Shown here one piece after another: positions 3,277 to 31,034 of a stretch of DNA of 64,000 bases. The notes under the pieces are model-generated. The model searched no databases. It was not told where the DNA came from and saw only the letters and a list, made by a program, of their open reading frames with translations. Positions within the stretch are counted from its first letter, which is position 1, and every line of letters starts with the position of its first letter. Origin of the DNA: Diacronema lutheri (Eukaryota > Haptophyta > Pavlovophyceae > Pavlovales > Pavlovaceae); the NCBI GenBank assembly GCA_019448385.1, contig JAGTXO010000050.1, positions 1 to 64,000 of the forward strand, in the 5' to 3' direction. The position numbers were made by a program, and so were the translations under genes.

Positions 3277-3443
3277 GCGAACGGAAAACGCGCGAAGGGT
3301 GGCGACGAAGATCGTTGGGTTGGGTTGGGCCACCGGCTCCCGAGGATTGCTTGTGGCGCTCGACTGACCGTTGGCCCAGCTTTTTTTTTTTCTCGAACCT
3401 ACTGTGGAGCCGCCTGCAGCGTGATCTCCCGCGCACAACGACC

Positions 3444-3914: not shown

Positions 3915-3916
3915 AC

Positions 3917-9366: not shown

Positions 9367-9401
<35 letters not shown>

Positions 9402-9799: not shown

Positions 9800-9831
<32 letters not shown>

Positions 9832-11735
9832 CGAGGCGTGCGCGGGGGCTTGGGGTGGGCTCCGGGTGCCGGCGCTGTGCCAGCGGCGGGCTTGGTTGAC
9901 GCCGTCTCGCCGGGGCCCTTGCGCCTTGCGGCGCGAGCGTCGCGGAGGGGCGTCGGCTGCGCTGGCTCCGCGTCGGCGGTGGCGTGGGGCAGGCTCTTGT
10001 GGAGGGCGGAGCGCTCGCGCACGAGTCGGTTGCCAAGGCGGGCTGTCTGCGTGCCGTTGGGCTGCGCTTGGGCAGGTAGGACCTGCGGCCTCGGGGGCGG
10101 GCGGGTTTTCGTGTTGGGCCAGGCGGCAACGCGCACCGGCCGTGTTCGCGGCCGGCAGGCGGACGTCCGCAGCGGGGCGGAGAATGCGGGTGAAGCGCTT
10201 GCACGGGCGCGGTTCGCACCTGGCGGCCAGGCGATCACGAACCGTTGGGTCGCCCGGCTGTTTGGTGGAGCCGAGGGCAGCAAGGATAGCGAGCTTGGCC
10301 GCCTCATCGGTGACGAGCGGCACTGTTGCCCAGCTCTGTACCTCGAAGCCCTGGATGTGCAGGCGTCGGGGAAGTTCCCGGCAGCGTCGCCTGCGTCCGT
10401 CGAGAGGCGGACCGAAGTCGCGCCCGTGCCCCCGTTGGCGACACCGAGCTCTCGCTCGTTCACACCGGCCCGCCGACGCGGGCGCGTGGTGCGCGCGCGT
10501 TGGGTGCGTGTCTGCCTCGAGCAGCGTGCCCAGTCGCAGTGTGGGCGCGTGTCCGTCTGCCTCAAAACGCCACGTGGAGGGGAAGGCGCGGGGCGGGCTC
10601 GCCGAGGAGGTGCCGCCGCTCGCTGCCACCCGGCGCGGGCTCGGGGCAGCCGTCTTCGGGTGCCGCGCTCTTCGCGCCATGCACGAACGTTCCGCCGCGC
10701 TCGCAGCGCGCGAGCGCACACACAGAGCGCGCGGCGACCCCGGTGGGGGCAGTGCGTCCCGGTGGCACTCGCGGGCGTGCGCCTGGCCTGGGCGCAGCTG
10801 GGCGCGTTGCCGCCCGCGCAGCGAGCCGCCCGCGCGCCTCGCCGCGCGCGCGCTTCGTCGCACGCGTGCGCCCTGCATGCACGCGCACAGCGCGCGGCGG
10901 CTCGGCGCAGTGCAAGGCAGAGCGTGCTGCAACGGTTGCGAGGGCGCGCACGCGCGGCGCGGCGCGCCCCTGTGTGGTCGCCTGCGCGCGGCGCGTGGTC
11001 CGGACGCAGCTCGGTGGCGTGATGCCGTTCGTGCAACACAGTGCGCGTGAGAGCCGCACGTGCACACCTGCAGTGCAACGCGGCATTGCGCGCGTTGCGT
11101 GGGCGGAGCGCGGCTGGATGTGCTTGAGGTCGCGCAGCATGCCGCGCGCCGCGCGCTGTGCGGCGCAGCGAGTCGGCCATGCCCCTGGTCCTCGTCTCCG
11201 GGGGGGGGGGGGGGGGGGTGGTGGTGGCAACCAGGATCCGCCAGCGCGTGGTGGGCGCCGTCCAACTCCCAGCCAGGATGCGCCCCGTTCTTCCCCGACA
11301 CTCTCCGTCCAAACCCGCCGCCCAGCCTGCCGCCGCACCCGCCGCCAACGCCGCCGCGCACCCATCCGCCGAGCTCACCTCGCGCGCGCTCGCGCTCACG
11401 CTGCGCGACGAGGCTGCGCAGGCCGGCGCGCGGCCGTGCAGAGCAGCGCAGGCCGGCGCGCGGCCGCGCGCGCGCGCTCACGTTGCGGCCGCGCAGCGAG
11501 CTTTCGCCGCGTCGCAGCCCCTCCGAGCAGCCACGATGCACGCCCCCGGAGGACGTTGGCCGCGCTCGGAGGCCGCGCTCGGGCGCGCAAAGAGAGGCGG
11601 CGCGGGCAAACGAGTAGGCTCGGCGCGCTGGCGGGTCCTGGTTGTGGGAGAGCGGGGCATTCTCCAGGGCATCATGTAAATTCTCCCAAGTATCATCCGG
11701 GCCGCCATCCGGACACTGACGTGCCCACAGTCTGC
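9012..11735 (-). CDS. Unresolved multi-exon minus-strand gene(s)
   Basis: Minus-strand coding islands separated by C-rich tracts (G runs on the plus strand). The last exon reads GGMVDPERKAALLAVLLRR and stops at 9012-9014. An exon near 9480-9770 has the hydrophobic, probably transmembrane spans LALTVAVAATVIAAGAAALA and VFIPALLALAAYVGNP. One near 10200-10380 has LHIQGFEVQSWATVPLVTD and KLAILAALGSTKQPGDPTV. A possible 5' part near 11640-11735 has CPDGGPDDTWENLHDALENA. C tracts on the coding strand before acceptors support the strand. Exon borders were not settled, and one or two genes are possible. No family recognised. Its stop overlaps the stop of the ubiquitin protease gene. Confidence 0.4.
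9354..9399. repeat. G homopolymer (46, one A)
   Basis: C run on the minus strand, inside a presumed intron of the 9012-11735 gene. Confidence 0.9.
9801..9831. repeat. G homopolymer (31)
   Basis: C run on the minus strand, just upstream of a likely minus-strand 3' splice site (CGCCAG then an exon reading AQCAIAVAGPQTQTLTCP). Confidence 0.9.
11200..11218. repeat. G homopolymer (19)
   Basis: C run on the minus strand, within the region of presumed minus-strand introns. Confidence 0.9.
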
Positions 11736-11737
11736 AG

Positions 11738-12340
11738 ATGGAGGACTCCGTGAAGGACGCTTTGCCCGGCGGGCGGGGCGGCTCGGACAGTTTCTCGCTG
11801 GCCCTCAGCACCATTCTGTCGCCGGGAGATACCCACCCCCACGTGGTCCCATCCACTTGCCTCATCGCCCTGCTGCGTTACGCGGATTTCGGCACGAGCA
11901 GGGTTAGGGTGGGCGACACGGGGTGCTCGCAGCATGCGCTCAAGGTGGCGCTGCGCAACCTGCGCAAAGCATGCGCGGATGCGGACCGGTTTGGGCAGGT
12001 GCTCGTGGTCGTGCTACCGCTCTGCCTCCGCGCGTCCAGCGGCCTCGTGCACTGGACGGCGGCGTACCTGCTCCTCGCGCCGCCCGCGCAGCGCGGCGCG
12101 CCGCCCGGCGCCGCGCTCGCCCTGCTCGCCGATTCGCGCACCTTGGGCAACGGCGAATCGGCGTACGCCACGGCGGCCGGCGTGCTCATCAAGAAGCTTG
12201 CGCAGCGCATCGGCAGAACAGCGCCGCCCATCGATGCCTTCTAGGCGCCCCCGCAGAGTGGGGCCGCGTGTTGCTTCGCCGCGGCAACAGTCGCGGCCGA
12301 GGTCGTGGCGAGCGCATCGACGCTCTACGGCCGCCGCGCG
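11738..12340 (+). CDS. Ulp1/C48-like cysteine protease module 1
   Basis: Reads MEDSVKDALPGG, then HALKVALRNLRKACADADR, then a protease-like core: His in LVHWTAAYLLL (about 12050), acidic residue in LALLADSRT, and a Gln/Cys block PQSGAACCFAAATVA at about 12251-12295. The order His-Asp-Gln-Cys with these spacings is that of the C48 (SUMO protease/adenain) clan. The open frame closes between the Asp and Cys blocks and reopens in the same phase; an intron or a break cannot be told apart here. It leads directly into the giant gene and may be its N-terminus. Confidence 0.45.
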
Positions 12341-15300
12341 AGTGTCCTTGTCGACATCAAGAAGGCTTTGGACGCGCGCCTCGCGCGCCTCACGACGGCC
12401 GCGTACGAGGAGACCCGCGCGCGCACGCTCCGCGCCGCCATCGGCGCTCTGCTCGGCGACCGCGCCAGGCGCTTCGGCCCGTTCACCCGCGAGGCCGCGC
12501 GGCTCGCCGAGGCCGCGCGGCTCGCCGAGGCGTGCGATGCCAGTGTCGGCGGATCCGCGCCCGACGGGCTGCTGCAGGCCGTCGAGGCGGCGCTGCGCGC
12601 GCCCGACGACCGCATCGCACGCACGGCCGCGCTCGACGCGCTCACGGGCGCTGCAGGCCGCGCGCTGTCGACGGCGGCCAGGCCGCGCGGCGCGGCGGCG
12701 CCAAGGCCGCCGTCGCGAGCGCCACCGCCGCGTGCGCCGCAGCGGCGCGCCGCCTCGGCGTGGGGGCCCCGACCATTCAGCAGCCTCGGCGGGGGCGAGG
12801 GCGACGGGGACGATGGCGACGCCACCACCGCTGACGACGGGGAGGGCGCGGAGGACGGGGACGACGACCCCGCGGGCGCGGCGGCTGCGGCGGTGGCGAC
12901 GGGCACGGCGGCGACGAGCGCGGTGGCGGCGGGCGCGGCGCCAACCTCGCCGGCGGCGGCGGACGGCGGTGGCTCGGCGCCGCTCGAACGCCGCTGCGTC
13001 TACACTGCGCCTGATGAGGGCGACGCGGACGCGCGCGTGTACGACGCCAAGGACCCCGAGCAGCTAAAAGCGGGCAGGGCGCGGCTACGGGCGAACAGCG
13101 GGCGCGCGCCCGCCGTGGTCGACACGCTTTTCGCGCACGCGACTGGCACGATCGTCACGCGGCAGCGCACGGAGGGCGTGACCGGCGCGGGCATGCACCA
13201 CCTCGCCGCCCCGACGCAGGGCGCGGGGTACGGTACCGTCGTGCGGGCCGAGCTGGGCGAGCCCGGCTTCGCGGGGACGACATGGCACATGACGTCGGGC
13301 GTGGAGAACCAGCCGCGCGCGGTACGAGCGGCCGCGCGCGCGTACGCGCACGACGGCTGGGGCGGCGTGTACAATGCGCACGAGGACTTTGCCGCCTTCG
13401 AGGGCTTGCCGCGGCTCGCCGCGCCCGAATCGCTCGCGGCCATCGCCGGCGGGTCGGCGGACGCGGTGTTCTGCTGGCGGTCCGGCCGGTCCGTCATCGG
13501 CGAGGTGACGACGGTTCACTTCAATGGCGACCGCGCCGCCGCCATCGACCACGCGCGGGCGCTGCGCGTCAGGCCCGATTGGCGCTCGCAGCCCAGGATC
13601 TACGAGGCGGCGTGCGGCGCGGAGGGCACGGTGCTGCTCGTGTGGGTCGTGCCCGACCGTCACAAGAACCCGCGGCTGGACTGGGCGCCGATTCTCGTCG
13701 TGATCCACCTGCCCGCCGACCCCGACTGGCTCGCGCGCGCCACGCCGGCGATCGCGAAGGCGCGGCGCGAGGTCGAGGACGGACGCGCGCGCGCGGAGGC
13801 GCGCGGCGTGCCGCAGCACCTCGCCTACACGCTGAGCCCACGCTTCCGAGGCACCGCGCCGCGCGGAGCCGCGCGCGTGCCGCCGCGCCTCGGCGCGAGC
13901 GACGCGCGCGAGGCGCGCGCGCTCGCGGCGCTCGAGCCGGCGCTCATGTTCGCGCCGGCCTGGCGGCGCGCGGTGCGCGCGGCGAGCCGCGCCCCCGGCA
14001 GTGGCGCCGCGGCCGTCGAGCGCGCGCTCGCGCGCCTGCACAACGCGCTCGAGCCCGATGACGAGAGCGCGCCCGAGTCGACGCGCGTCGCGCCGCTCGC
14101 CGCCGCGCTCGAGCAGTCGGCGGGCTGGCCGGCGGGCACGGCGCGCATGGCGGCAAGCGTGACCAAGGGCCCCGGCGTCGGAGATGGCGCAGGTGGCGAC
14201 GAAGTGACCAAAGTGGAGGAAACGGCGAAGACGAGCGGCGACGGCTGCACCGGCACGCCTCCTCTGCGCCCGGCCGCGCGCGCGGCCGGCGCGGCGGACG
14301 ACGGAGGGGCGGCGGTCGTGGCGGGCGTCGAGGGCGAGCGCGACGCACTCGCCAAGACGGGTGCCGGCGGCTGCGACGACGACGCTCGCGAGCCGCTGTC
14401 GGCCGGCAAGCCCGGCGCACTCGCCGCCGCGGCGACCGTCGGGGGTCTCGGCGAGCTCGTCGGCAGCCTATGCGCGTGGCTGGCGCGCGGCGCGGCTGGC
14501 GGCGCCATCGCGGCCATCTCCCCCGGGACGGCCGCGCGCGGAGCAAACGGCACGCCGCAGCGCGCCGAGCCGCCGGCCGCCGGCGATCCCGTCGCTCCGC
14601 ACGCGCGCGTCGCCGCTGCGGCGCCCTTGGCGGGCAGCGCGGCGGCGCCGTCGTCGGCCGCGCGCGACGCGCAGCGCGGCGTCGCGGGATTCGACGCGGC
14701 CGCGCACGCGCACGCGCGCGACGGCAGGCGGGCGGCACGGCGGATGCGCGAGCAGGAGGGGGCGGTGCACAGGGCCTTCCGCATGTCCCTCTGGCGCGAC
14801 GCGACGTTTGTCGAGTTCGTTGAGAAGCTGCGCCCCGACGGCGGCGCGCAGCTGCTCGCGCGCGAGCCCACGCGGCGCGCGGCGGCGGTGCTGTGCGAGC
14901 TCGCGCGCGGCCGCGACGGCGCGAGCGGCGCGGCCGGGCTGCTGCACGAGATGAGAGCCGCCGATGCGCGCGCGCGCGAGGCCGCCAAAGCGGCGGAGGC
15001 AGCGCAGCTTGCGCACGGGACGCTGCGCATCGTGGCAACCGTGGCGCTGGGCGGTGCGGTCTTCGCCGGCATGTCAGCGCTGGTCGTTGCTTGCGCGGCG
15101 CGCACGGCGACCGGTGCGCTTTTTGGGGCCCGCCGCCCGCGGGCGGCCGCGCGCGGAGCCGACGACGCGCTCGGCACGCTGCAGCGCGCCAAGCCGCCGC
15201 CCGCCGACAAGGGCAAGCGCAGGCGCGCCAGAGCCAACGACGACCCCGTCGACGCGGCGCGCAAGGCCGTGGGCAAGGCGGAGGGCAACTGCCGCAAGGC

Positions 15301-18300
15301 AGCCCGCCGGCTGCACCTCGCTGCACTGGGCGAGGAGGAGGCGCAGCAGCGCGTGCTCGACGCCGAGGCGGCGGAGCAGCTGGCGCGCTCGCGCGAGCCG
15401 GCCGGCGGCTGGGTAGGCAGCGCGCGCGCGCGCGCGCGCGCGCGCCCCGCCGCGCGCGCGCCCGTCGATTGGCGTGCGCGCAGCGCAGAACGGCGCGCCA
15501 GCTCCGTCACCTGCGCGCCGCCGCGCCCGTGCCCCTCGCGCGCAGGGGCGCCCTGCGGACCTGCGGCTGCAACAGGCGCACTTTGGCATGCGCGAAGATG
15601 CCGACGCGGATGTGCGCCGCGCGCACGAGGCGCTGCGCCGGGCGAGACAGGGTGTGGCGTGCGCCAAGGCCAGCGTGCGGCAGATGGAGGCGGCGTTGCT
15701 CAACGCGACGCGCTGCGCCACCGCGGTGCTCGCGCCGCGTGGCGTGCCGGAGGGTGACGAGCAGGCCGCGGCGAGAGAGCAGGCGGCGCTGGACCGGGAG
15801 GCGCCGCCGGCCGCGCAACGCGCGGCGCCGACGGCGCGCTCGCCCTCGGAGCCGCCGTCCGAGTGGGGCCCGCCAGCGGTCGGCCGGCGCCCGACGCCGC
15901 GTGCACTGTCGCACGCCGCGGGTCGCGGGGACGACAACCCGTTTGCGCCGCTCGCAACCGTCAGCGGCGATTGGTCGCCCACGCCGAGCTCGCGCTCGCC
16001 GTCCTCGCCGCCGCGGCAGCCGCCGTCCGACCGCCGCAGCGCGCAGCGTCGCAGCGCGCGCGTGCGGCCGCCGAGGCCGACCGTTTCGCCCGAGGACGCG
16101 CTCGCAGCCGAGCGCCAGGCGCGCGCGCTGTCGGAGCAGGCGGAGCAGAGGCGCGCCAAAAAGGCCGCCGCCAAGGCCGCGCGCCGCGCCGCGCGCGCCG
16201 CCGACAAGCGGACGGCGCGCGTCGTCCACGCGTGCGTAAGCGCCGCCTTGCGGCGCGTCTGCACGAGCGTCGCCACGGGCACGCCGCTCGCCGTGCTCCG
16301 CGAGCGCGCCGAGGGGCCGCGCGCGCCGAAGCCCGCGCCCGCGCCGCCACGCCGCGCAGCGGACGGCGGCCGCGCGCTCCGCCACGCGCGCCGTGCGGCC
16401 GCCGCGGCGGCGGAGCGCGAGGCGGCGGTGGCGGCCGACGCCGACGAGCGGTTCGAGCGGCAGCCCTCCGCCGCCCGGTTCGACGGCGGCGATGGCGGCG
16501 GAGGCGGCCACGTCGAGGCGAGCGCGCGACCGCGCGCCGGCGAGGCCGGCGAGGCTGGCGCGCACGGCGCGCCTGGCGCAGCGGGGCCCCCGGCGGCGTC
16601 GCTCGCGTCGCGCAGCCCGTGTGATGCGCGCCGCACGGCACGCCTCCCGCACGCACGCGCCGCAGCCACCTGCGCACGCAACGGCGGCTGGGGTGGCAAC
16701 GTCGGCGGCGACGTGTGCGGCGGTTGTTTCGGCGGCGGCGGCGTCCGTCGCGACGCCTGCGGCGGCGGCGACGCCACCTGCGGCTGCGGCGATGGCGGCG
16801 TCGGTGCTGGCGCTGGCGAGGCCCCTGCACACGGTGCGCCGGCGCGCGCGACGGCGTCGCGCTTGCTGCGCTTGCTCGGCGCGCCACGCGCCGTGCTCGG
16901 TGCGATGGCGCACGCCGCGGCCGTGTTGGCGCGCGGCGTGGCCGCAGCCGTCGCTGGCGTGCGCGCCGCCGCGCGCGCCGTGCGGCGCGCGCGCCGCCGA
17001 GCGCCTCGCGCGCGCCGCACGGCTGCGCGGCGGGCTCGCGGCCCGCCGATGCGCGACGTCGACGGCGCCCTGCGGCCCTCGCCGTCCTGGTTGCGCACAC
17101 GCCTCGTCTGCGGCCGGCGCCTCGCGCCTCTGCGCCGCGCGGGCGCGCGCCCGCCGCCCGCACACGCCGCGCCGAGTTCCCGCGCGCGCGCTGCGCAACC
17201 CGACAGCGACGCGCCGGCGTGCGCGCCGCGGCGCTCGGCGCCTGTCGGTGCGCCGCCGCGCGCGCGTGGCCTGCGCGCGGCGCGCGCACGGCGCTTCCTC
17301 GACGTCGCCGGCCGCGCGGCGCGGAGCGCGCGCCTCGGCGCGCGCATCACGCGCCAGCGCACGCCGGGTTCGCCATCGGAGCCCTGCACGGCCGAGAGCG
17401 GCGACGGCGCGGGCGCCGGCGGCGTCGGCGCGGCGGCGCCTGGCGCGGCGACGATGCGCGCCACCGGCGCGCGCGCAGCGCGCGCTGCGGCGGCGGCGGT
17501 CGGTGGCGCCTCGCGTCTCGCGCGCCGCGCGATGGCAAGCGCCGCCGCCGCTGCCACCTCCATCGCCGGCGCTGCCGCCTCCACCGTCGCCGCCGCCGCC
17601 GTTGCCATCGGCGCGGCCGTCACGTCACCGGCGTTCGCCGCGGCGCGCGGCATGGCGGCCGCATGCGTCGCTGCCTGCGCCCGCCCCACCGCCGCGCAGG
17701 CGGCCGCGTCGCGCGCGCTCGGCGCGCTCTTCGTGCTCGTCGACGCGGCCGACGCGGCGGGCGACAGCGACGCCGCGCTCGGCGCGCTCGCGGCCGCGGT
17801 CGACGCGACGGAGCTGCGCCCGCCGCCGGCCTTTTGGCGCGCGGGCCGCGCCGCGGCGTACGCACCGCGTCCGCCGCCCCTCGACTCGGCGCGGCCGCGC
17901 TACAACCGGCGCGCGCGCGCACCTAGCCCTCCCGTCGCGGCCGCGCGGCGCAATCTCGCGCGCGCGGTGCGCGAGCTCACGCGCGCCGCGCGCGCTGAGC
18001 GCGAGCGCGCGCCGGCGCCGCGCGGCGCGCGCGGCGGCGTGCTCCACGCGCTGCGCGCGTCGCTCCCCGTGCACGCGCGTGCCGCGCTCGGCACGGACGC
18101 GGAGCTGCGCGCGGACATCGCCGCGTTCGCGCGCGCGCGCCGCGAGCTGCACAGCCTCACCGACGCCGAGGTGGCGGCGCTCGCGCGCCCGGACGGGCCG
18201 CCGCTGCCCGTGCGGCTCGCGTGCACGGCGGTCGCGCGCGCGCGCGGCGTGACCGTGCTGCTCGACATCGTGCCGCGCGGCGGCGGCGCGCCCGAGCGGC

Positions 18301-19993
18301 TCGTGTGCCGCGCCCGTCGCCGCGGCGCCGCCACGCGCACGCCACGGCCGACAGCCGCCGTTATCGCGCGCGCGCCTTGCATAGCGGCGCGCGTTGGCCA
18401 CACTGAGCCGGCGCGCGCGTGCGCGGGCGGATCGATCGGGGTCGCGCGCCTCCGTTCAGCGCGCCGCCGCTCTTGGCGTGGGGCGCGGCTCGACGTGCAC
18501 ACCCGCGAGCGGCTGGCCACACCGGTGCCAGGCCACGTCGTGGCCTGCGCCGCCGCCTCGGCCATCGGCGCGTGCGTCGCTCGCGCGCGGCTTGGGCTTG
18601 CACGGCTGGCGCGCGCGTGGCCCTGCGCCTCCGCTCCACTGGCCGCTGCTGCTGTCGCCTTCGCGCCTGCCGCCGACGGTGTTTTCTGCGCCCCGCTGGG
18701 CGCTCCTGCATCCGCCTTCGCGCCTGCCGCCGACGGTGTTTTCCCCGCCGCACTAGCCGCTGCTGCATCCGCCTTCGCGCCTGCCGCCGATTTTCCCGCC
18801 CCACTAGTTGCTCCTGCATTCGCCTCCGCGCCTGCCACCGACGGCGTTTTCCCCGCCCCACTAGCCGCTGCCGCTGCCGCGTCCGCGCCCGCCGCCGCGG
18901 GCGCGTCTTCCGCCCCACCAGCCATCGCCGCCGCGCCCGCCGCCAACGCGCGCACCGCCAACGTGCCCGTTGCCAACGAGGCTACCGCCACCGAACCAGC
19001 CGCCCTTGAGCTTCCCCTCCAACCCGCCAACTCGGCGCTGCTTGCGTGGGCGGGCGACGCGGCTGCGCGCCGGCTGGCCGCCGCCGCCGCGAGCGCCGGC
19101 CTCCCGCAGGCAGAGGTGGAGCGCATCGCCAGCGGCGACATGCTCGCCTCAACCGTCGACGCGTGCTGCGAGGTCGTGCTGCGCGTGCACGGGCAGGCCG
19201 GCGGCGGGCATGTCTGCCACGTGCCGCTCGCCGCGCAACCCGCGGTGTTTCAGGACGACGCCGAGCGCGCCGCGCTGCTGCACCGCCTGCGCAGCGAGGC
19301 GACAACGCAGGCTGTCATCGGCGTGTGGAGCCCGTCGGACGAGCGCGGCGGCGCGGGCGGTGACGACGGCGCGCAGCTCGCCTCCGGCCATTTCACCGCG
19401 TTGCGCCTTGTGCGCGTCGCGCGCGCGGGCGAGCATCGCTACGACGCGGTGCTCGTCGACACGCTCGCGTCGCCCTGCAGGCAGGCGCTCATGCTCGCCA
19501 AGGCGATAACTGCCACGCTGCACGCGGCGGGTCTCGACATTTCGCGCGTGCGCCGCGCGCTGCTGCTCAACGAGGCGGCGCAGCGTGGCGCGACGTGCGG
19601 CCTCGCGATAGTGGGCGCGCTCAACGACGCGCTCGCCGCGGCGGGCTGCTCGTCCGCGCCGCGCACGTTCAGCGTGGCGGACATGTACGCTGTCGGCGAG
19701 CGCCTCCGCGTCGCGCTGACCGGCGCGGCCAGCGATCGTGCGCCGGGCGGCGTCTGCGCGGTCACGAGCGCGGTGCGCGGCGGGGGCAGCCCCGATCGCG
19801 CCGAAACGCCGCCGCAGACGCGCGGCGCCAAGGCCGCCGCTGGCGTCACCGCCGCCGCCACCGCCGCCGCCACGCCGCCGCCGCCCGCGCTGGGCGCCGC
19901 CGCCGCCGCCACCGCCGCCGCCGCCGCTGCTGCCGCCGCCGTGGCCGCGCCGCCACCGCCGCCACCGCCGCCGCCGGCCGGCGACGCGGGCGA

Positions 19994-20057
<64 letters not shown>

Positions 20058-23000
20058 GCCGCGCGCACGTTCTTGAAGCTCGCGCCCAGGGCGCGCGCGG
20101 CCGCCTCGGCGCGTGAGGCGTTGCGCGCCGCGTGTGCGCGCGCGGACGCGGCGGCGTCGTCACACGCGTCGGCGCCGCACGCGCCCGCCGGTGCGCGCCG
20201 CCGGCGGCGCGCGGGCGCAGGCGAGCTGGCGCTCGCGGCTGCGCGCGCGCTCGCCTCGACGGAGCACGGCGATTTGACGGACGACGCGCTCGAGGCCGCC
20301 GTCGAGCAGGAGCTGGGCGACGAGCGCGGCCAACTGCTGCTGTGCACGCGGGGCGCAGCGGCGCAAAGGCCCGCGCTTTGCCGGCTCCTGAAGCACGCGT
20401 GCGCGTCGGCGCGCGCGGCGAAGCGCGCGCAATTCACGGTGTTCGTCGTGCGCGCGGCCACGCGCGGCGAGCGGGGGGGCGCCGCCGCGAGGCGCGTGGA
20501 CTCGGTGGTCGAGCTGTCGTGCGCGCTGCACGAGAAGGCGGGCGCGCTCGGCGGCCTCCAGAGCGTCTGTGTGCGTGGCTTTGCCCTCGAGCGCCGCCGG
20601 ACACTCGACGGTGGCGCCGAGGCCGGCGCGTCCGCCATCGGCCAGGACGAGCAGGTCGAGGCAGAGGCGGGCGAGGCGTCCGTCGCCGGCGTGACGATGG
20701 CCAAGCAGCTGCGTCAGTTTGCCGAGCAAGCTGCCCGCGACGACGTGCTCTTCCGCGTCGCCGTGTCCGAGGCCGACGCCCACGCCCGGCTGGCGCGCGT
20801 TGCGGGTGACGATGTCGGCGCGTACAGCGTCGTGCTCGCAGTCGCCGGGCTCGTCTGGCTGGCCAAGGCCGACGAGGTTGCGCCGGCGGCCGCCCGGTCC
20901 GCCGCCGCGCCGCCCGCCGCCCCGCCTGCTGCCGCCACGTCCGCCGACGCCGAGCGCGACGCCTCGCCTTCCGACCGCCTGCGCGCGCTGACGCTCGCCG
21001 TGCGAGTCGCGCTCGCGCGCGGCGTGCTGCGCCACCTCCTCGCCGACGCGTCGCCGGGCGCGTCCGCGACCGCTGGCGGTAGTTGCGCGACGCCCGTCGA
21101 GGCGGCCGCGTCCGACGCCGCGCCGCCCGCCACGGGCGTCGTGACGAGTGGCGTCGCGGCGGGCGCTGTGGCGGCCGCACCGGCTGCTGCGGGCGGTGCG
21201 ACGGCGGGTGCATCGCCCATCACGCGGCCGGCGAAGCGCGCGCGGCGCACGCTCACCGCCGCTCCAGCCGCCTCGGCCGTTGCGGCCGCTGGAGGCGCAC
21301 GCGCTGGCGCACGCGGCGCGGCCGGCGCGCCTCGCGCGCGCGCCGCGCGCGCGCCGGCCGAGTACGTCTGGCTTGCCATCGCGCGCCGGATGCTGGCGGC
21401 GCGACACGCGGCGGCCGCGGGCGGCGACTTTGTCGCGTCGTGCGTCGCCGCGATGCAGGCCGAGTACGGCGACGGCTGTGCCGTCGTCGTCGGCGACGCG
21501 CCTGATGACGCCTTGGTCGAGGCTGCGGCGGCGGCGCTGCTCGAGGGCAAGCACGCGGCGGTGAGCCTCGGCTGCGTCGACCGGCCGGCGGTGCTCGTCG
21601 TGCAGCGCGCCGTGGACGCGCCCACGTCGCGCGTGCACGGGTGGTGCGCGCACGCGGCGGGCGCCGCCGAGTTTGACGAGGGCGCCGCGCACGGCGTGTT
21701 CAACGCGATCGTCGAGCGCGCGTGGGCGCTGCGTCCGGACCCGGCTGACGGCAGCCCGCCGCCCACGCGCACGTGGGAGGTCGAGCAAATCGCTGGCGAC
21801 GCGCCCGACCAGGCGGGCGTGGCCGCGCTGCGCGTGCTCTACGCGCTCGTCGCGGCGCACGGCCGCTACCGCTCGGCCGCCGCGCTCTTTGGCGCGCTCG
21901 CGCAGCTGCACGCGCCCGACGCCGCCGGCGCGCGCGCGGAGGTCGTCGCGGCGGCGTGCGCGGTGCCGCACGGCGCGCGGCCGGGCGCCGCGCCGGCGGC
22001 CGCGCGGGACGACGCGAGGGAGCGCGCATGGGAGGGCGCTCAGATCGCCGCGCTCGCCGTCGGCGCGGACGCTGCGCGCAGGCGTGTCGCGCCCGTGCGC
22101 GCGCTCGTCGACGCGCTCGGCACGCCACCGACCTCGGCGATCACGGGCGGGCCGGCGGTCCGGCTCGCGGGCGCGGGCGACGGCGGCCACGGTGCACGGT
22201 GGGTGGGCGGGCAGGCGGCGACGCCCGCCGAGCAGCTGCCGAGGGAGCTGCTGCGCGCCTACCACGAGGCGGTGCTGTGCGTCACGCCCGGCAGCCTCCA
22301 GCTCGGCCCGGCGGCGCTCGACGCGGTCACGCGGCCGCGCGAAAACGACACGCTGGAAGGCCTCCTCGCGCGCGTCAGCTGGCAGTGCGGCGCGAGGGCG
22401 AGCACGTGCGCCATGCTCGCCACGTTTTCCGAGCAGGCGGGCACCGGCTCGCGCGTCGCGCTCAAGGCCCTCCGCACGAGCTCCGACCTGGCCGGGCTGA
22501 CGGCGGCTGCGGTCGGGCAGCAGGCGCCGCAGACGCCGCCGCCGCCGCTGCTCGTGATGCTCGGCCGCTGCCCCAGCCCGCTCGTCGGCGGCGGCCTCTT
22601 CCCGCCCGACCGCGCGACGGGCGAGCCGGCGGTGCACGCGGCGACGTCCGAGCTCGCCGTCGAGCTGCTGCGCGACGCGCGCGCGCTGGCCGGCACGGAC
22701 GGGCGGCTCGTCGTGCTGTGCCTCGAGGCGTCCAACCCGCTCTGGTTCTGCCCCAAGGTGCGCGAGCTCGAGCTGCCGCGGACGCGGTCGGACGGCGTGC
22801 GCGCGTCCGGCTGCACCTGCCCTGCGACGTGCAGCGATGCGCGCGGCGCGGCGGGTGGCGCTGCCCGCGGCGCATCGACGCGGCCGGCGGCGCGCGCGAT
22901 CAACAAGGCGGTGCTCGACCACTTCGTCGCGCTTTTCGGCCGCGAGGGCTTCGCGACCTTTGAGTTTGCGGGCGGCGGCGAGGCGAGCTGGCTGTGCGAC

Positions 23001-26000
23001 AGCGCGGCCGGCACGACGACCGTCGCGGCGTGCGCGTCGCTGCCGCCGCGCATGGGCGATGGGCAGCTGGCCATCCGGCGGCACACGCTCGGCACGGGCG
23101 CCGACGCGCCGGCGCACGCCGTCGTCTCGCTCCGCGTCGCGCACGTGAGCCACGCCATCCGCCGCGCGGCGGACGACGGCGGCGCGCGCGCCGAGCGGAT
23201 GGCGCGCGCCGCGCGCGCGTTCTGCGATGTGGCGGCCGCGCTGCGCGTCGACGCGATCCTGGCGGAGGTGCCCGAGGACCGCCCGACGGGCACGCCCTTC
23301 CTTGGCGGGCTGCTCAAATTTTGGGACAAAGACCACGGGAGCTCGACGGCGCCAGCCACGCTCGCGCTCGGAGACGTGCGCGAGGTGGCCAAGCGGACGG
23401 CCGACGCAGCGGCCGGCCGAGCGGACGAGGTCCCTGCGGCTGGCCGTCCGCAGGTCGCGGCGCGCGCGTGCGCTGGCGCGATTGGCGGCGGCGCGGGCGC
23501 GGCGGGCGCCTCGGACGCTGCGCCGCGTGCACTGGCGGGCGCGTCGGGTGCGCGCACGGACGGCGGCCCTGCCGACGCACCGCGCCAGCTGGAGAGCCGC
23601 TACGGCGAGGCGAGCAAGCTCGACCTACCCCAAGATTCCACTACGGGCCGCGTCCTCGACGCTCGCGAGGCCCAGGACCGCGCGCGCGTGCCTGCTGCGC
23701 CCGACGGCACAGCGCTGCGCCGCGTGCTCGACGCCGTCGGCGCGGGCGCGCCCGCGCAGCGCAGCCCGCGCTGGCACGACGAGCGATGGGAGGAGGTCAC
23801 GGGCAGCAAGGTTGGCGACGTCGTGAACGACAACGCCGGCGTCGCGCACGAGACGCTCACCGACGAGTACGTGCACCGGCGGCGGCGCGAGGTGCGGACC
23901 AAGGCGACGACCGCGGGCATCCTCGGCGAGGCCGTCGCGCTGCGCAAGCTGGCGGCCGCGTACGGCATCACCGTCGTGTGCAACCTGCCGATGGTGCGTG
24001 CGGACCCGCACGACAAGAGCGCGCCGTTCGCCTTCTCGCCGGACGGGCTCGCCATCCTCCCCGAAAACAACGAGCAGGTCCTCGTCGAGGTGAAGACGCT
24101 CACCAAGGCGGGCGCCACGGCGCACGAGGACGGGCCGCCGCAGCCGCACCGCGATCAGCTGCAGCTCGGCATGCACGTCCTCGGCGTGAGCAAAGCGCTC
24201 TACGTGCAGTACCTCAGGCACGAGGACCGGATCGTCGTGCACGTCGTGACGCGCGGCGCCGGCTGGCTTGCATTCGCGCAGCCGAGGGTGCAGGCCTTCT
24301 GGGCGCGCGTCGTCGAGCGGCGCGCGCGGCTCGAGCGCGCGCGCGCCGACCACCCGGCTGCGAGCCGGCGGCACCGGCGGCAGCAGACGCCGGCCGGGCC
24401 GCCGCTCGTGCTCGCGCTGGACGGGCGCATCCCCGCCGCGCGCGCCGCCGCGCTGCACGCCGTCGCGCACGGCACCGCGAGCGCGGCGGCGGTGACGGCG
24501 GCGGCGGCGACGGGCGACGCGACGGCGCTGCAAGACGCGATCGCGGCGCTGCGCGCGCCCGTCGGCAATGCGGCGATCGACAGCGCAGCGCGTGCGGAGC
24601 GCGCGGCCGTCGAGCGGGCGATCGCGTACCTCGGGCAGCCGGCAGGCGACGCCGCCGCCCGCGGCACGGCCGAGGCGGCCGAGGAGGAGAGGACGGTCGA
24701 CGCCGACATCTGCGCGTTGCTGCACCAGCTCGGCGCGAGCGTGGCGCACGTGCACGTCGAGGACGCGGATTGCGTCACGCGTGAGCACTGGGGCGGGGCG
24801 GTGCTCGCTGCAGCGGGCGACCCGTCGAGCGCCCCCGCCATTTCGAGCGTCATCGTCGCGCACATCGTGCGCCTCGCCGGCTTTGGCGTCGAGCTCCCGC
24901 AGTCGATTCGCGTCGCCCCCAGCACGGCCGACTGGCACGAGGGCTGGCTCGACGTGCAGTGCGTGCTGCTGCGCACGCGCCGGCGCGGGCGGCGCGACGA
25001 CGACTTTGTGGCCGTCGTCAGGCGCGGTGGGCGCTGGTTTGCGTGCGAGCCCGGCCGCGCGCGGCGGCTGCAGTGGCGGTCGGTCCTGCGCCGCGCGCGC
25101 GGCGGCGTCGACGGGACCGGCGAGGAGGCGTTCGCGGTCGTCTACGTGCGGCGCGGCGACGCGGCCGGCGACGCGGCTGGCGACGCGCAGGCCGAACGGG
25201 CGCGCGGCGGGCGCGCGCGCAGGCGCACGCGCGGCGGCACGCGCAAGCGCAAGCGCGGCGCCTCCGCCGGGCTCGAGGCGGCCGCGCCCGCCGGCGCGCC
25301 GGCGGGCGCTGCTCACCGCCCGCCCGCCAGGCGTGCCACGGTCGCCGCGCGCACCACGCGCTCTGTGACCGACGCGCGGCACTCGGCGCCTGCCGCCACG
25401 GTTGCACCTGTCTTCGACTGGCGCGCCGGCCGCCCGCCCCCTGCCGCCGCCGCCGCCGCCAAGCGCGGCCAGGCGCTCGAGCCGGGGCAGTTCGCGCGGC
25501 CGCGTGGGCGCGCGCCATGGGGCAAGGTCTGGGACAGAGTCTCGGGTGCGTGGGCGGACAAGCCGACTGGTGCTGCCGTCGCCGCCGCGCCGCCGCCGCT
25601 GCCGCCCGCCGCCGCGCCGCCGCCCGCCGCCGCGCCGCCGCCCACCGCCGCGCCGCCGCCCGCCGCCGCGCCGCCGCCCGCCGTCGCGCCGCCGCCCGCC
25701 GCCGCGCCGCCGCCGCCGCCGCCACCGGCGGCGCTCGGCCGCCGGCAGCACGTCGGCGCGGGCGGCAGCGCGGCGGGCCGGCGGCTCGCGGCCATCGCAC
25801 GGCGGCAGCGCGGCGTGCGCGCGCCGCCGCCCGCCGCGCGCTTCCTCGCCACGCTGCCGCCACCACGCGACGGCCTCGCGCGCACGAGCAAGCAGGCGCG
25901 CGCGAGGCGCAACGCGGACGGACGGCCGGCGCACGCGCGCGCGGCCAACGCGCGCGCCTTCTACCGCGGCGTGGAGCTCGGCGTGCACGCGACGCGCGCC

Positions 26001-29000
26001 ATCGTCGACGCGCGCCACGCCGACCTGCCGCAGGCCGTCTTCGTGGCGGAGGCGCGGGCGATCGTCGCGCGCTCCGCCGGCGGCGGCGCGCTGCTCGCGC
26101 CGGACGACGTGCGCGACCTGTGCGACGCGCAGACGGACGCCGATCGCGCTGCGATCTGGGCGTCGGTGGGCGCGCACGAGGCGACGCGCATCTTCGCGCT
26201 CGTCACGCGCAACGCGAGCTTGGCGGGCGCGGCGCTGCTCGTGCTGCACACGCCGGCGGGCGCGCCGGCGCGCGCGCTCGGGCTCGTGGCGACGCGCTCG
26301 CGCGCGCCGTCGACGGGCGCGCCGCGCGACGCGCACAGGGCGCTGGTGCAGCGGTTGGACGTGCTGATGGACGCGATCGCCGCGGCGCGAGGCGCGTCGC
26401 CGCTCGAGCTCGAGCTCGCGCTCGCGCCCGAGCCGCAGAGCGCGTGCAACGCGCGTGCGGCCGCGCTGCTCTGCCTGCAGGCCGTCGCGGACGCGAGCGG
26501 CCGTCCCGCCGCTGAGGACGCGCTGGCCGCGCTCGACGACGCGCGCGGCATCGACCGGCACTGCCACGCCGTCCGGCAGCAGATCGAGGCGAAGCTCGCG
26601 TGGCGGCGCGCCGACGGCGCCGTCGGCGTTGACGGCGCCGACGGCGCGCCCGCGCTCGCGCCTGCCGCCGCACCGCCGGCGTGCGCGCCGGCGCACGCTG
26701 CCGGCGAGGCGGCGGTCGACCAGGCGATCGTCACGCGGGTGCGCGACGCGCTGCGCGCGTGGGCGACGACTGGCACCGCGCCCAGCGCGGCGGTGCTCGA
26801 CGACGCCTGCGCCGCGTACACGGCCCGCGCACGCGCGCGCAAGGACGCGCGCACGGCGCTGGGCCCGACGCGCGCGGCCGAGCTGCTCGCCGCGGCCGCG
26901 CGCGGCGGAGCCGACGGGGCGGATGCCGCGCGCGCGCTGCTCGGCGGCACGCCGCGCCTGCTCGTCGTGCTCCTCTGCGTGCCCGTCGCCGCGCCGTCCG
27001 GCGAGCCGCCGCGCCCGGTCGGGCTGCTCGTCGCCGACCGGCCGACGGACGACTCGCGCCCGGCCGCGCTCGTGCGCTACGACTTTGCGCCGCTCGACGC
27101 GGACGTGGCCGTCGCGGTCGGCGCGCATGCCGTCGCGCTGGCCAGTGCGATCTGGCCGCTGCTCGCGGCCGAGGGGGAGCCGCGGCCATCGCCCGTCGTG
27201 CGCTCGCAGCCGCGCGGCGGCGACGATGGCGCGCGTGCGCTCGCAACGTTCGCGTGCCTCGACGCGCTGATGACCGCCAGCGTCGGCGCGCACGGCCTCG
27301 CGGGCGGCGCGGGCATGCTGCCCGCGCTGGTCGCGCGAGGCGCCGCGGCCGCCCAGCGCGAGCGGCAGCTGCGCGCGGCCGCCGAGAGGCTGGGCGGCAC
27401 GGTCGCTGGGTGGCCGGACACGGGCGCGAGCGCGGCGGGCGCGAGCGTCGACGAGGAGGCGCGCACGTACGAGGTCGAGGCGGTCGTCGACGAGCGCCGC
27501 AAGGCGGGCAAGAAGGTGACGTTCCAGTTCCGGATCAGGTGGCGGGGCTACGACGAGAGCGCCGACACGTGGGAGCCTGAGGCCAACGTGAGCAGCGACC
27601 TCGTCGCCCAGTTCCGCAAGACGCGCGACGAGCAGAAGCGGCGCGCGGGCGTATCGGGCAGCGGCAGCGGCGGCGCGGGCGCGGCGTCGGCATTGGCGTC
27701 GGCGCCGCTTCGCGCGCACGGCGAGTCGGGCGCCGCGGGCAAGCGCGCCGCGGCGGGTGCCGCCGCGAGCGCGCGCGACGCCGCGGGCGCGCGCGCGCCG
27801 AGCGTTCCCCGCGCGCGCGGCGTCGAGCGCGCGCGCGTGGACGAGCCCGCTGCGCCGAGCGCGCGCGCCGCCGGCGGCGCGACGGCGCGCACGCGCGTCA
27901 GCGTGCTCCCGGGCTTCGTGGTCAAGCGCTCGACGCTCAACGCGGGGCCGCAGGCGGTGACGGCGCAGCCCGGTGCGCGGAAGGAGCTGCGGCGCATCGC
28001 GGCGGCCGTGCACAGGCTCACGACACAGGCGTACCGCGTCATCAACAAGGTGGTGCGCGACGAGGCTGCGGTGGCGAGCGCGCAGGCCGTCGGCGCGGCG
28101 TCGGGCGGCCCGTCGACCAGCGTGCACACGTCGACCACGATGGACAAGGGAACCGTCCGTGCGATCTTCTCGGCCATCGGCTGGCACAAGGACGAGAGCA
28201 CGTACGGTGCAGCGCCCCGAGGCAAGCCCGCCGAGCAAGCCGCCGCGCAGACCAAGGCGGCGACGGCGCGCGCCGTCGGCGAGATGGCCGAGGGCGTCCA
28301 GCCCGTCTGCGCGGTGGGCCTCACGGAGATCCTCGAGGCGGAGGCGACGCAGGTGTCCACCGCGTGCCTGATGCATCCATCGCGCGTCGTGAACGGGCTG
28401 CTCCGCGACGTCGTCCGCGCGGCAGTCGAGCGCGACGAGGCGCTCGTCGCGCTGCCCGAGATGCAGCGAAACGCGCGCGTGCGCGAGCTGTGCGAGCGGC
28501 TGCTGCGCGGCGACGTGGAGGGCGCGCGCGTCGGCTGCCCCGCCGCGCTCGACCGCCACCTGCCCGACATGGTCCTCCACAAGATCGACTACAAGTGCAC
28601 GCCCACGAAAAGGTGGAACTACGACCGGCACACGACGCGCTACTTCCTCGTGCAGATCCGCACCCTGCAGCACGTGGCCGAGGGGCAGGCGCTGCTCTGC
28701 CGGCTCGCGCACATCCACACGCAGCTGACCGGACGGCCGCCGCGGTACAATGTGGCGCCGCTGCGCACGCACAATGTGCGCGCGAGGCGTGGCTGCCGCT
28801 GCCGCCGCCGAGCGCCCAAGCGCGCGCGCCGCCGCCGTGCGCGCCGCCCCGCGGCCAGGTTGGTCACGCGCCCGCGCGCTCGCGCGCCGCGCGCTGCGCG
28901 CAGGTGCCGCGCAACGTGCGCCTCGCCGCGAGCGCCATCTGGGTGACGCTTTCGGATGACGAGCGCAAGGAGCTGCGCGCGCGGCTCAAGGCGCTGGACC

Positions 29001-30628
29001 TGCGCGACCACGATGGCGAGCCGATCAAGTGGACAGGCACAAACGGCAACACCCCGCCGATGTCGGACGTGCGCGTCAGGTACGCGGTCTTTGCGACGCG
29101 CTTCGACATCTCCAACCGCGTCTTCGACTACGCCGGGCGCGAGCGGCCGCCGGCCGATCTGCCGTGGCACGCGCGGCGCTCGTGGGTTGGCCTCGCGCCG
29201 CTGCCGCGCGTGCCGCTCCCGGGCCGGCAGCCCGTCAAGTCGGTGGTGACAGATGGCGTCGCCGTGCACGCCGTCGGGACCGTCCTCGTGCCGAAGGCGC
29301 AGGCGCCGGCCGGCGGCTCGGGCGTCCTGCACCGCTGGCGCCGGCCGGACGGGCGCATCGCCGTCGCGCTCGGCTCCGAGCTGCGGCGGGCGATCGACGT
29401 CGAGGCGGCGGTCGTCGTCGCGGCCGACCCGAACATGGGCAACATCACCACCTACTCTGCGCACGTCGGGCGGGCGGCCGTCTGGCGGCAGTTCACGCAG
29501 CGCGCGCGCGCGCGCGCCGCGGGCTTTGCGCGCGAGACGGCCAAGACCAACGCGGCGCGGCGGCGCGTGCGCAAGGACGGGCGCGGCGAGGAGTTCAGCG
29601 TGGAGGCGGACGAGGCGCGGCTTGGCGAGGCGCACAGCGCCAAGGTGCTCGGCGAGGGCGAGTTCCACGCCTTCCACCGCGAGAGCGCGCGGGTGCGCGA
29701 GCGCGCCGCCGAGCACGTGTACGACGCGCCGGCGCGCCGGAAGGAGCGCTGGCGGCGCGACAGCGGCGGGCGGTCCAACGCGGCGCGCGTCGCCGAGGCG
29801 CTCATCGCGGCGCACTGTGTCGACGGCGTGACGCGCGACCGGCTGCTCGTGTGCGTGGGCAAGTGGCTGCGCGACCACAAGGGCGCGCAGCCCAAGGGCG
29901 CGCCGCCCGCCTTCCAGGTGGGGCTGCTGCGCGAGCTGCGGCGGCGCGGCGTCGCGGCCGTCTTCGTGCCCGAGCCGTACACGTCGATGCACTGCTCGAT
30001 GCCGCGGCTCGCCAAGGGCGGCAGGCTGCAGCGCTGCGGCGCGGAGCTCGCGCAGAACCCGCGCCTGCCCGTGGCAAAGGGCGGCACGCGCACGGTGCAC
30101 GCGCTCGTCATCTGCCCGGCGTGCAACGGCGGCAAGAAGCCCGTGCACCGCGACTACAACGCCGCGCGCAACATCTTCTACGACGTGCACGACATGGCGG
30201 CGCACGCGGCCGGGCGCGACACCACGTCGACGCCTGAGCGCTTTGCCCTCGTGCTCGCCTGGTGGGCGCGCGGCGAGGTGTGGGAGCGTGAGGAGCGCAT
30301 GGTGCACGGCGAGGGCGACGACTGCGACGACGAGTGCGACGGCGACGACGAGGGCGACGACGAGGGCGACGACGACGACGACGACGATGGCAGCGGCGAC
30401 GGCGGCGGCGGCGAGGGCGACGGCGACGGCGACGGCGACGGAGGCGGCGGCGGCGACGACGACGATGACGGCGGGGGAGGCGGCGGCGGCGACGGCGGTG
30501 GCGACGACGGCGGCGGGCGCGGCGGCGGTGGCGGCGGCGGCTCTCGCGCCCGCACCCCCGCCCGCGGAGCTGCCAGCGCCAGTGCCGGCGGCGGCAGCGC
30601 GCGCGGGCCGAAGCGCGGCCGGCGTTGA
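12257..30628 (+). CDS. Giant multidomain protein: C48-like, YqaJ exonuclease, chromodomain, Fanzor nuclease
   Basis: One plus-strand gene with two introns whose splices are frame-exact in phase 0: exons to 15412, 15546-28775 and 28904-30628 (introns of 133 and 128 nt, GT-AG). The product is about 6,000 residues; the true start is unsettled. Order: a globular part (13000-13850), a linker, a hydrophobic segment (15028-15102), coiled coil flanking the first intron (GEEEAQQRVLDAEAAEQLAR before, ADADVRRAHEALRRARQG after), C48-like module 2 (19030-19740), Ala/Pro tract, further protease-like folds, YqaJ domain (23757-24350), Pro/Ala repeats, chromodomain (27465-27627), Fanzor domain (27900-30190), acidic/Gly tail and a basic GPKRGRR end that could be a nuclear signal. 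The second frame is open for 13.2 kb without a stop, which argues for selection despite high GC. Large minus-strand ORFs opposite are shadows. I know of no described protein with this layout. Confidence 0.7.
19030..19740 (+). CDS. C48-like cysteine protease module 2 (domain of giant gene)
   Basis: Within the giant gene. VIGVWSPSDERGG is followed by GHFTALRLVRVARAG with the candidate His, then YDAVLVDTLASPCRQ with the Asp, then LNEAAQRGATCGLAIVGALN with Gln and Cys. This is the His-Asp-Gln-Cys order of Ulp1/adenain-type proteases, which cleave SUMO-like tags or polyproteins. The upstream helix STVDACCEVVLRVHG matches the position of the helix before module 1. All four candidate catalytic residues are present. 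The domain is assigned on motif order only, so the fold remains an inference. Confidence 0.5.
19846..20070. repeat. GCC-repeat tract (poly-Ala/Pro coding)
   Basis: (GCC)n and (CCG)n arrays in frame within the giant gene, coding two Ala runs separated by a Pro run. Likely a flexible linker after C48-like module 2 and prone to slippage. Confidence 0.85.
23757..24350 (+). CDS. YqaJ/lambda-exonuclease-type domain (domain of giant gene)
   Basis: Within the giant gene. The entry motif RSPRWHDERWEEVTGSKVG is the classic RSxxWxxxRxxxITxS start of the YqaJ family of PD-(D/E)XK exonucleases. It is followed by TTAGILGEAVALRKLAAAYG, the catalytic Asp in FAFSPDGLAIL, the E-x-K motif in LVEVKTLTK, and the Gln helix HRDQLQLGMHVLGVSKALYV. 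All active-site positions are kept. These enzymes degrade one strand of dsDNA 5'-3' for recombination and are common in phages and large DNA viruses. In an RNA-guided nuclease protein it could process cut ends (inference). Confidence 0.8.
25588..25725. repeat. Tandem PPPAAAP-coding repeat
   Basis: About eight imperfect 21-bp units (GCCGCGCCGCCGCCC-type) coding PPPAAAP repeats in the giant gene, between the part after YqaJ and the next globular part. Confidence 0.85.
25960..27420 (+). CDS. Two further protease-like folds, probably inactive (domain of giant gene)
   Basis: Within the giant gene. The first (about 25960-26600) has TRIFALVTRNASLAGAALLV and ends in PQSACNARAAALLCLQAVAD, which keeps a Q-x-x-C-N block. 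The second (about 26700-27420) has LLVVLLCVPVAAPSGEPPRP and ends in SQPRGGDDGARALATFACLD, with no Cys in the equivalent place. An earlier stretch (21350-21960) ends in GDAPDQAGVAALRVLYALVA, also Cys-less. I read these as degenerate repeats of the C48-like fold; this is pattern-based and uncertain. Confidence 0.3.
27465..27627 (+). CDS. Chromodomain (domain of giant gene)
   Basis: Within the giant gene. TYEVEAVVDERRKAGKKVTF opens the domain, FRIRWRGYDESADTWEPEAN holds the aromatic-cage Trp and Tyr and the WEP motif, and NVSSDLVAQFRKTR is the C-terminal helix. The match to the chromodomain consensus (Y-x-V-E-x-I-x-x...W-x-G-Y-x-x-x-x-x-T-W-E-P) is complete. Chromodomains bind methylated histone tails and steer some retroelement integrases to heterochromatin. 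Here it lies about 90 residues before the Fanzor region. Confidence 0.9.
27900..30190 (+). CDS. Fanzor (TnpB-like) RNA-guided nuclease domain (C-terminus of giant gene)
   Basis: Within the giant gene and interrupted by the 28776-28903 intron (phase 0; PLRTHN joins VPRNVRLAASAIW). The N-terminal part has IAAAVHRLTTQAYRVINKVV and KIDYKCTPTKRWNYDRHTT. RuvC-I is VVVAADPNMGNITTYS (Asp at 29426), RuvC-II is VFVPEPYTSMHC (Glu at 29972), and RuvC-III is HRDYNAARNIFYDV (Asp at 30152), the DxNAARN hallmark of TnpB, Fanzor and Cas12. Between II and III lies a zinc-ribbon-like region with Cys at 29993, a second about 14 residues on, and a CPAC pair before GGKKPVHRDYN; the first knuckle is unusually long. 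VCVGKWLRDHKG before RuvC-II fits the Fanzor strand pattern. Fanzors cut DNA guided by an RNA from the 3' end of their element. All catalytic residues are present. Confidence 0.88.
30307..30600. repeat. Acidic/Gly low-complexity tail of the giant gene
   Basis: GAC/GGC triplet arrays coding long Asp and Gly runs after the Fanzor domain, ending in a basic GPKRGRR and the stop at 30628. Confidence 0.85.
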
Positions 30629-31034
30629 CGCACGGCCGAGCCGCGCAGCGGTCGACGCTTTGCGGGCTCTGCCCAGGTCGCGCGCGGCTGGCGACGCGTG
30701 CCGCGCGCGGCACGACCGTGCACGCCGCCACCCGTGGCCGAGCGCGCCGCACCAGCCGGCCCGCTCCAACCGCCGTGCGGATCACGGACGCTCGCTACGG
30801 CTCGTCGGCGCGCGTCACCTGCGCCGGCGGCCACGGCGCCGTCTGCTCCGGCCTCGTCGCGAGCAGCCCGACCGCTGCTCGCCGCCCGCACGCCGCCGCA
30901 GCAACGCTGCGCGTCGTGCTCCCCCGCTCGCCAAACGCGAAGAGCTCCCTCACAAGGACGTCCTTCCGAACGGCCCGCGCTGCACTCGGGGCGCGATCGT
31001 GCCCCTGATCGGATTTGGCTTGACCATCTATACC
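30629..31034. other. Non-coding stretch after the Fanzor gene
   Basis: About 400 bp between the giant-gene stop and a hairpin, with no supportable ORF. In TnpB and Fanzor elements the guide RNA usually comes from this position. Nothing in the sequence proves a guide RNA here. Confidence 0.4.

Follow-up and report, generated by a model that had tools for sequence, protein, structure and literature searches.

A high-copy 31-kb mobile element of Diacronema lutheri with a giant gene predicted to join YqaJ, chromodomain and Fanzor domains

Fanzors are eukaryotic RNA-guided nucleases. We analyzed a 31-kb DNA mobile element of the alga Diacronema lutheri whose largest gene is predicted to place a Fanzor behind a YqaJ exonuclease domain and a chromodomain in one spliced frame. 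The element lies at the start of contig C72 (JAGTXO010000050.1), of which the first 64,000 bases were analyzed (the window), and searches covered 43,492,796 bases in 103 contigs. The assembly, from strain NIVA-4/92, has a GC content of 73.25% and a PacBio subread N50 of 23.5 kb (PMC8379373).

Fanzor1 proteins are known from DNA transposons (PMC3627910), some Fanzors co-occur with HUH transposases (PMC10432273, PMC3627910), and the role of Fanzors for mobile elements is described as unsettled in the excerpted text of PMC10432273. Our locus resembles the published Fanzor system in its placement within a DNA mobile element, in the motif D...[TS][TS]xxC4...RD and in the presence of introns, which some published genes have. 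It differs in scale: the published prototype is a single open reading frame (ORF) of 633 amino acids, whereas the present Fanzor sits at the C-terminal end of a gene of ~6,200 codons that also has YqaJ and chromodomain parts, in a 31-kb element. ISL2EU elements, of the PHIS superfamily, are also eukaryotic DNA transposons and likewise code for a YqaJ exonuclease domain; however, they are ~4.8 kb long, have YqaJ and a DDE transposase in adjacent, separate ORFs and make an AT target duplication, and the excerpted text of PMC4482050 describes neither a Fanzor nor a chromodomain (PMC4482050). Chromodomain LTR retrotransposons also hold a chromodomain within a mobile-element polyprotein (PMC6338049), but no reverse transcriptase or integrase family was detected in the ORFs scanned here. 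TnpB of IS200/IS605 is another RNA-guided RuvC nuclease of mobile elements, for which restoration by recombination after cutting has been proposed (PMC10432273). In contrast to those elements, no TnpA was found here, the nuclease would be fused to an exonuclease and a chromatin reader, and a PIF1 helicase is present. Helitrons carry a PIF1-like helicase and insert between A and T. The present element shares the helicase, and Fanzor1 is a published Helitron partner (PMC3627910); however, no HUH Rep domain was found here, and the ends and the target are different.

Each of the three parts is known in mobile elements. Among the matches listed for the open PMC literature and in the excerpted text, no YqaJ-chromodomain-Fanzor union in one frame was found. 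This agrees with an earlier sequence-only reading of the window (the first-pass annotation), which knew of no such fusion.

Extent and copies of the element

The 31-kb element is a recently amplified, high-copy DNA mobile element of D. lutheri. The first-pass annotation had outlined its giant gene and missed the surrounding element, including a PIF1 helicase and a deubiquitinase-like gene. We set the limits of the element (Table 1) at sharp ends that are common to the copies and that adjoin unrelated flanks. At the 5′ edge, a C precedes TATATACGGC in all 17 copies compared, and the 5′ flanks are unrelated. At the 3′ edge, CATCTATA is followed by a C and then by unrelated sequence in all 15 copies compared, the window copy included. 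The 3′ count leaves out the diverged copy L028, whose end has one base changed, and L024, L025 and L029, for which the 3′ anchor was not found. The start of contig C72 coincides with the 5′ end of the element.

Copy counts are the best-scoring matches among longer candidate lists and hence lower bounds. With the first 600 bases as query, we found at least 40 loci that are 99–100% identical (best 40 of 289 candidates scored). The chromodomain/Fanzor stretch is present at a minimum of 92 loci (best 92 of 348) and the last exon at 75 or more (best 75 of 463); all of these are 100% identical as protein after rounding, and 74 of the 75 last exons have no internal stop. Within a genome of just 43.5 Mb, this makes a multicopy nuclease family, many members of which are nearly identical. 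Older copies are also present: of 30 loci retrieved by their match to the TNB family, five (L024, L025, L028, L029 and L030) contain pieces of the element at 82–97% nucleotide identity. Shortened copies occur as well; one of them, on C28, joins window positions 4-5087 to 23450-31033.

In 11 copies both flanks could be compared (two of them with a single 3′ flank base), and these show no target duplication of more than one base. A search for the empty site of the copy on C5 matched a related repeat with a differing middle. This short repeat (C89:843814-843962, L078) has GTTCATGAAC palindromes and a variable middle, and the C5 copy is inserted into a relative of it. As calculated from the match positions, several contigs (e.g., C1, C5, C6, C12, C26, C29 and C72) start no more than about 20 bases away from an element end. 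These starts are probably assembly breaks at the 31-kb repeat, presumably because the subread N50 is shorter than the element.

We assessed membership in described element classes. Pfam scans of the element ORFs detected no transposase, integrase, capsid or reverse transcriptase family (some short ORFs were outside the scan). A DDE transposase with THAP and an AT target duplication would mark an ISL2EU element; the scanned ORFs gave no match to a DDE family, and a C stands at both flanks. The PIF1-type helicase and the published occurrence of Fanzor1 in Helitrons (PMC3627910) raise the possibility of a Helitron-like rolling-circle element that captured Fanzor and YqaJ, in which the giant protein would be an accessory, dispensable for copying. 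However, the Helitron_like_N family (HUH, PF14214) has no match in the element and one in the whole genome, on contig C63. The ends are TATATACGGC...CATCTATA rather than TC...CTRR, with C at both flanks in 17 and 15 copies. We rejected Helitron identity on the missing HUH match and the non-matching ends, and consider capture by such an element very unlikely.

Structure and domains of the giant gene

The first-pass annotation had linked three plus-strand frames through two frame-exact introns, with a middle exon open for 13.2 kb and a start at 12257. At the sequence level the joints were borne out: 12257-15412, 15546-28775 and 28904-30628 form a single frame whose only stop is the terminal one, and both predicted introns have GT..AG borders. 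The start was not. The frame upstream of 12257 runs to an ATG at 11738, crossing an in-frame stop, and the GC-position bias extends upstream to ~11.8 kb; we therefore rejected an exon start at 12257.

Coding signal follows the proposed frames. Between 12001 and 30600, 30 of 31 blocks, each of 600 bases, have their highest GC content at third codon positions of the proposed frame and their lowest at second positions (GC3 > GC1 > GC2), and the pattern changes frame with each intron. Only the block at 18601, a tandem repeat, departs from this order; the contrast is weak at 16801 and 25201. A codon log-odds scan, for which parts of the giant gene itself served as the training set, falls to about zero within 15413-15545 and 28776-28903 and then recovers in the new frame. 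Long frames can also be a by-product of 80% GC DNA, in which case only the Fanzor part, and perhaps YqaJ, would be a gene; antisense frames of up to 1,715 amino acids are indeed open in the same stretch. However, the GC order holds for one frame in 21 of 22 exon 2 blocks and fits no antisense frame, and four large antisense frames gave no Pfam match. Given the base composition, a stop-free run over all 4,410 codons of exon 2 has a probability of ~10^-18. Periodicity and stop-free probability largely refute a chance open frame, which we regard as extremely improbable. The giant gene is real in outline, and its coding frames as proposed are partly confirmed.

The first joint deserves separate consideration. 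The YqaJ-chromodomain-Fanzor chain could be real and exon 1 separate, with one gene from 11738 to a stop at 15757 and a second from an ATG after 15546, for example at 15588 (the Met at codon 1240 of the spliced frame). If unspliced, the exon 1 frame is open to 15757; that of exon 2 runs open from 15474 onward; and the transcript-type evidence, which lies within exon 2, does not reach intron 1. Against this, the codon signal of exon 1 stops at ~15412 and is negative afterwards, that of exon 2 begins at ~15546, and both edges of intron 1 fit GT..AG. We consider a separate exon 1 unlikely. At the second joint, alignments with two database relatives of the Fanzor (P0002 and P0003) begin exactly at 28904, the predicted exon 3 border, which supports that border. 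Both relatives might instead be genes that start at that point.

We compared copies at the in-frame stop at 12242-12244. Over the 601 bases around it, two of the 40 scored copies (the window and C15) are identical to the window and 38 score lower; all four inspected among these 38 have a sense codon there, as does the copy on C32. Copies intact at that site therefore exist. The C32 copy is 99.7% identical to the window copy and stop-free in all three exons, with exonic length differences of +9 and +3 bases and one of +2 bases in intron 2. The exon 2 frame reaches at least 4,500 codons in 50 of 92 scored copies (4,504-4,519 codons in 41 and longer in 9). The ~6,000-residue protein proposed in the first-pass annotation thus stands as a three-exon frame of 6,210 codons, and the window copy is broken by its internal stop.

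Three domains were recognized in the predicted protein. The chromodomain matches PF00385 at 4.6e-14 (52.5 bits; cut-off 25.1). Its best Protein Data Bank (PDB) match is a CDYL-type chromodomain (3.7e-11), to which the positions that we take to be the aromatic cage were aligned. The Fanzor catalytic half matches PF07282 (TNB) at 28 bits (cut-off 26.3) and has the RuvC residues D at 29426, E at 29972 and D at 30152, a Cys4 zinc finger and an RD motif, which align with those of P0002 and P0003. It scores only 14 of 100 bits with NCBIfam guided_TnpB, and its best Cas12f match in the PDB has an E value of 0.26. The preceding 27867-28775 is probably the N-terminal part of the Fanzor, from its position and from what we presume to be Fanzor1 motifs. 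The YqaJ region stays below the Pfam cut-off of 22 bits, with 15 bits when the whole ORF is scored and 21.1 when a piece is, whereas the PHROG RecE-like exonuclease profile matches at 4.6e-17. TIGR03033, of the lambda-exonuclease family, matches at 3.4e-7 but with 30.5 bits against a curated 68, and the PDB gave no useful sequence match. The E, D, ExK and Q residues that we take to be catalytic are present, as read by eye. As sequence assignments, the chromodomain and the Fanzor catalytic half are secure and the YqaJ/lambda-exonuclease domain is well supported; all three had been named in the first-pass annotation, the YqaJ call being the one that misses a Pfam cut-off in the window copy.

YqaJ occurs as two sequence types in the genome, that of C71:175587-176000 (L001) and that of the window (24066-24189); the C71 type is near the sole expressed match. 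Four residues differ between the C71 and window sequences inside the domain and one just after it.

The protease-like C48 modules of the first-pass annotation were not recovered. None of five candidate pieces has a Pfam match, sequence searches of the PDB with two of them gave nothing below E 0.1, and internal similarity stays at z <= 2.0 in 21 pairs. A single-sequence AlphaFold2 model of a candidate, made without homologues, has a confidence score (pLDDT) of 41. We rejected C48 modules as established features, and the proposed maturation of the protein by its own modules is likewise unsupported. For two further domains, at 12950-13930 and 22227-23489, sequence searches of the PDB gave no match up to E 1.

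We searched for relatives and expressed sequences, scoring the best 8,000 candidates for Fanzor relatives and for the exon 2 match described below. The Fanzor relatives are P0001 (99% identical), which is probably from the same species, P0002 (45%) and P0003 (44%). No IMG/VR relatives were found for four queries. A EukProt protein of Pavlova lutheri (scaffold1219, 425 amino acids) matches 22413-23687 at 99%, unspliced and in the exon 2 frame; judged from its name and source, it is probably transcriptome-derived. It has four of the five residues that distinguish the C71 copy from the window in the matched stretch and therefore comes from a copy of nearly the C71 kind.

The same genome holds a second multicopy Fanzor family (loci L002-L023 and L073), which is ~29% identical to the window Fanzor over 112 amino acids. 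In the copy L073 (C85:59500-69499), the ORF L073:1246-6582 on the minus strand is open for 1,779 codons, with no intron there and a low-complexity N-terminus. Just past a second-family Fanzor at L017 (C53:159333-162560), positions 863-1329 hold a diverged piece of the exon 1 domain on the opposite strand. Window positions 13105-13502 match this C53 locus with 90% nucleotide and ~71% amino acid identity, and the piece is perhaps a nested insertion.

A possible cut-and-copy function

Our tentative reading, to which we give a little less than even weight, is that the giant gene is the main gene of a recent 31-kb DNA element and encodes a ~6,200-residue YqaJ-chromodomain-Fanzor chain that favors recombinational copying of the element by cutting and resection. 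The YqaJ domain, the chromodomain and the presumed Fanzor N-terminus share one exon and the catalytic half lies across an intron, so that one polypeptide is the simplest reading. The earlier suggestion that targeting, cutting and end-processing sit on one polypeptide therefore agrees with the frames; in the window copy the chain is prematurely stopped. Alternatively, YqaJ, the chromodomain-Fanzor part and the rest could act as separate proteins, through polyprotein processing or internal starts. Exon 2 has in-frame ATGs along its length, including ahead of the chromodomain; the protein contains long linkers of low complexity, with A, G, P and R accounting for 47-63% of the residues in each block; and protease-like modules had been reported. 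However, the C48 similarity is without statistical support, and a 2A/NPGP motif, looked for in the giant protein, is absent. Separate proteins seem to us improbable.

Lambda-type exonucleases yield 3′ tails, which are the substrate of recombination, and PIF1 helicases drive break-induced replication. A resecting exonuclease fused to a Fanzor, with PIF1 on the same element, would fit a cut-resect-copy machine. The Fanzor, with a guide RNA from the 3′ end of the element, would cut the allele or sister site that lacks the element. The YqaJ exonuclease, tethered to the Fanzor, would resect the broken ends into 3′ tails, and the PIF1 helicase may aid copying of the long element back via recombination-dependent synthesis. 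The chromodomain may aim the complex at marked chromatin or hold it there. First insertion at new C-flanked sites would fall to some other activity, so far unrecognized. The Fanzor lies on the 3′ side of the element, with its stop at 30628 and the element end at 31032. In published systems, the Fanzor guide RNA either overlaps the Fanzor gene or is located beyond the stop codon on the right-end side; for TnpB, cutting with subsequent copying of the element via homologous recombination is described (PMC10432273).

A more far-reaching version is an RNA-guided homing element that is self-contained and has no classical transposase. In it, a single polypeptide would find chromatin through its chromodomain, make an RNA-guided cut through its Fanzor and resect the ends through YqaJ, and PIF1 would drive copying of 31 kb into the break. 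If so, spreading would depend on programmed cutting and recombination; we consider this quite unlikely. The fusion would be a natural design that couples cutting with end processing, and the combination of Fanzor, resecting exonuclease, chromatin reader and PIF1 makes the cut-and-copy idea directly testable in the alga.

Several observations weigh against the recombinational reading. The internal stop keeps the window copy from encoding the entire protein uninterrupted. Of the 92 scored copies, 42 have a shorter exon 2 frame (4,000-4,499 codons in 11 and less in 31). Codon changes between the C32 and window copies comprise 7 synonymous and 26 nonsynonymous ones, so no selection at the protein level is visible among young copies. 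Substitutions in the diverged copies show no clear excess at third codon positions, and these copies therefore look like decaying relics. The window-type YqaJ match is weaker than that of the C71 type, which reaches 28.2 bits, above the cut-off, and is the only locus that passes E 0.001 (best 150 of 203 candidates scored). No relative of the giant protein was found among 1,434 candidates scored. Transcript-type evidence is limited to part of exon 2 and does not join the YqaJ, chromodomain and Fanzor parts. The predicted fold of 30830-31033 is unremarkable (z -1.56, with 11 of 200 shuffles equally good) and is compatible with either the presence or the absence of a guide RNA.

Other features of the element and window

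Table 1. Features of the element in window coordinates
Feature	Position	Strand	Comment
Whole mobile element	5..31032	+	~31.0 kb; TATATACGGC ... GACCATCTATA, with C on both sides
Giant gene	11738..30628	+	Three exons; 6,210 codons, two of which are stops in the window copy (one internal, one final)
Exon 1	11738..15412	+	1,225 codons; coding periodicity
In-frame stop of window copy	12242..12244	+	Sense codon in inspected sister copies
Further domain in exon 1	~13085-13930	+	Matched in part by a C53 locus
Intron 1 (predicted)	15413..15545	+	GT..AG; codon signal lost
Exon 2	15546..28775	+	4,410 codons without stop
Stretch matched by EukProt Pavlova lutheri protein	22413..23687	+	Unspliced, 99%; holds further domain ~22413-23487
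YqaJ/lambda-exonuclease-like nuclease domain (predicted)	23772..24182	+	Pfam, PHROG, TIGR03033
Chromodomain	27468..27620	+	PF00385; Y..W..Y aromatic-cage positions kept (by eye)
Probable Fanzor N-terminal part	27867..28775	+	Exon 2, after chromodomain; without Pfam match
Intron 2 (predicted)	28776..28903	+	GT..AG; codon signal lost
Exon 3	28904..30628	+	Fanzor catalytic half
3′ non-coding end	30629..31032	+	Candidate guide RNA place, by position only
Nested near-perfect inverted repeats	2000..2886		Arms of 207 and 174 nucleotides, 97% and 95% complementary
Short ORF (MAAIDLRAFDAALVNCEI...)	3432..3911	+	Upstream of helicase; no family recognized in profile scans
PIF1-like helicase	3911..5775 (about)	+	Spans two frames; one putative intron
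ORF with ubiquitin-specific protease (UCH) domain	6876..8369	+	PF00443 33.8 bits, cut-off 23.9

The helicase match to PF05970 is 54 bits when 3716-4756 is scored and 87 bits over 3712-5778; PF21530 matches with 48.7 bits. In the ORF with the UCH domain, we spotted by eye what we take to be the Cys and His boxes of ubiquitin-specific proteases. The inverted repeats, in the non-coding 5′ part of the element, contain tandem GTGTAGG units. No Rfam or tRNA matches were found in the window. Beyond the element, 10 ORFs between 31034 and 64000 were scanned, and some match ordinary nuclear genes, including the DNA polymerase delta small subunit, a PhyH dioxygenase and a CLC channel.

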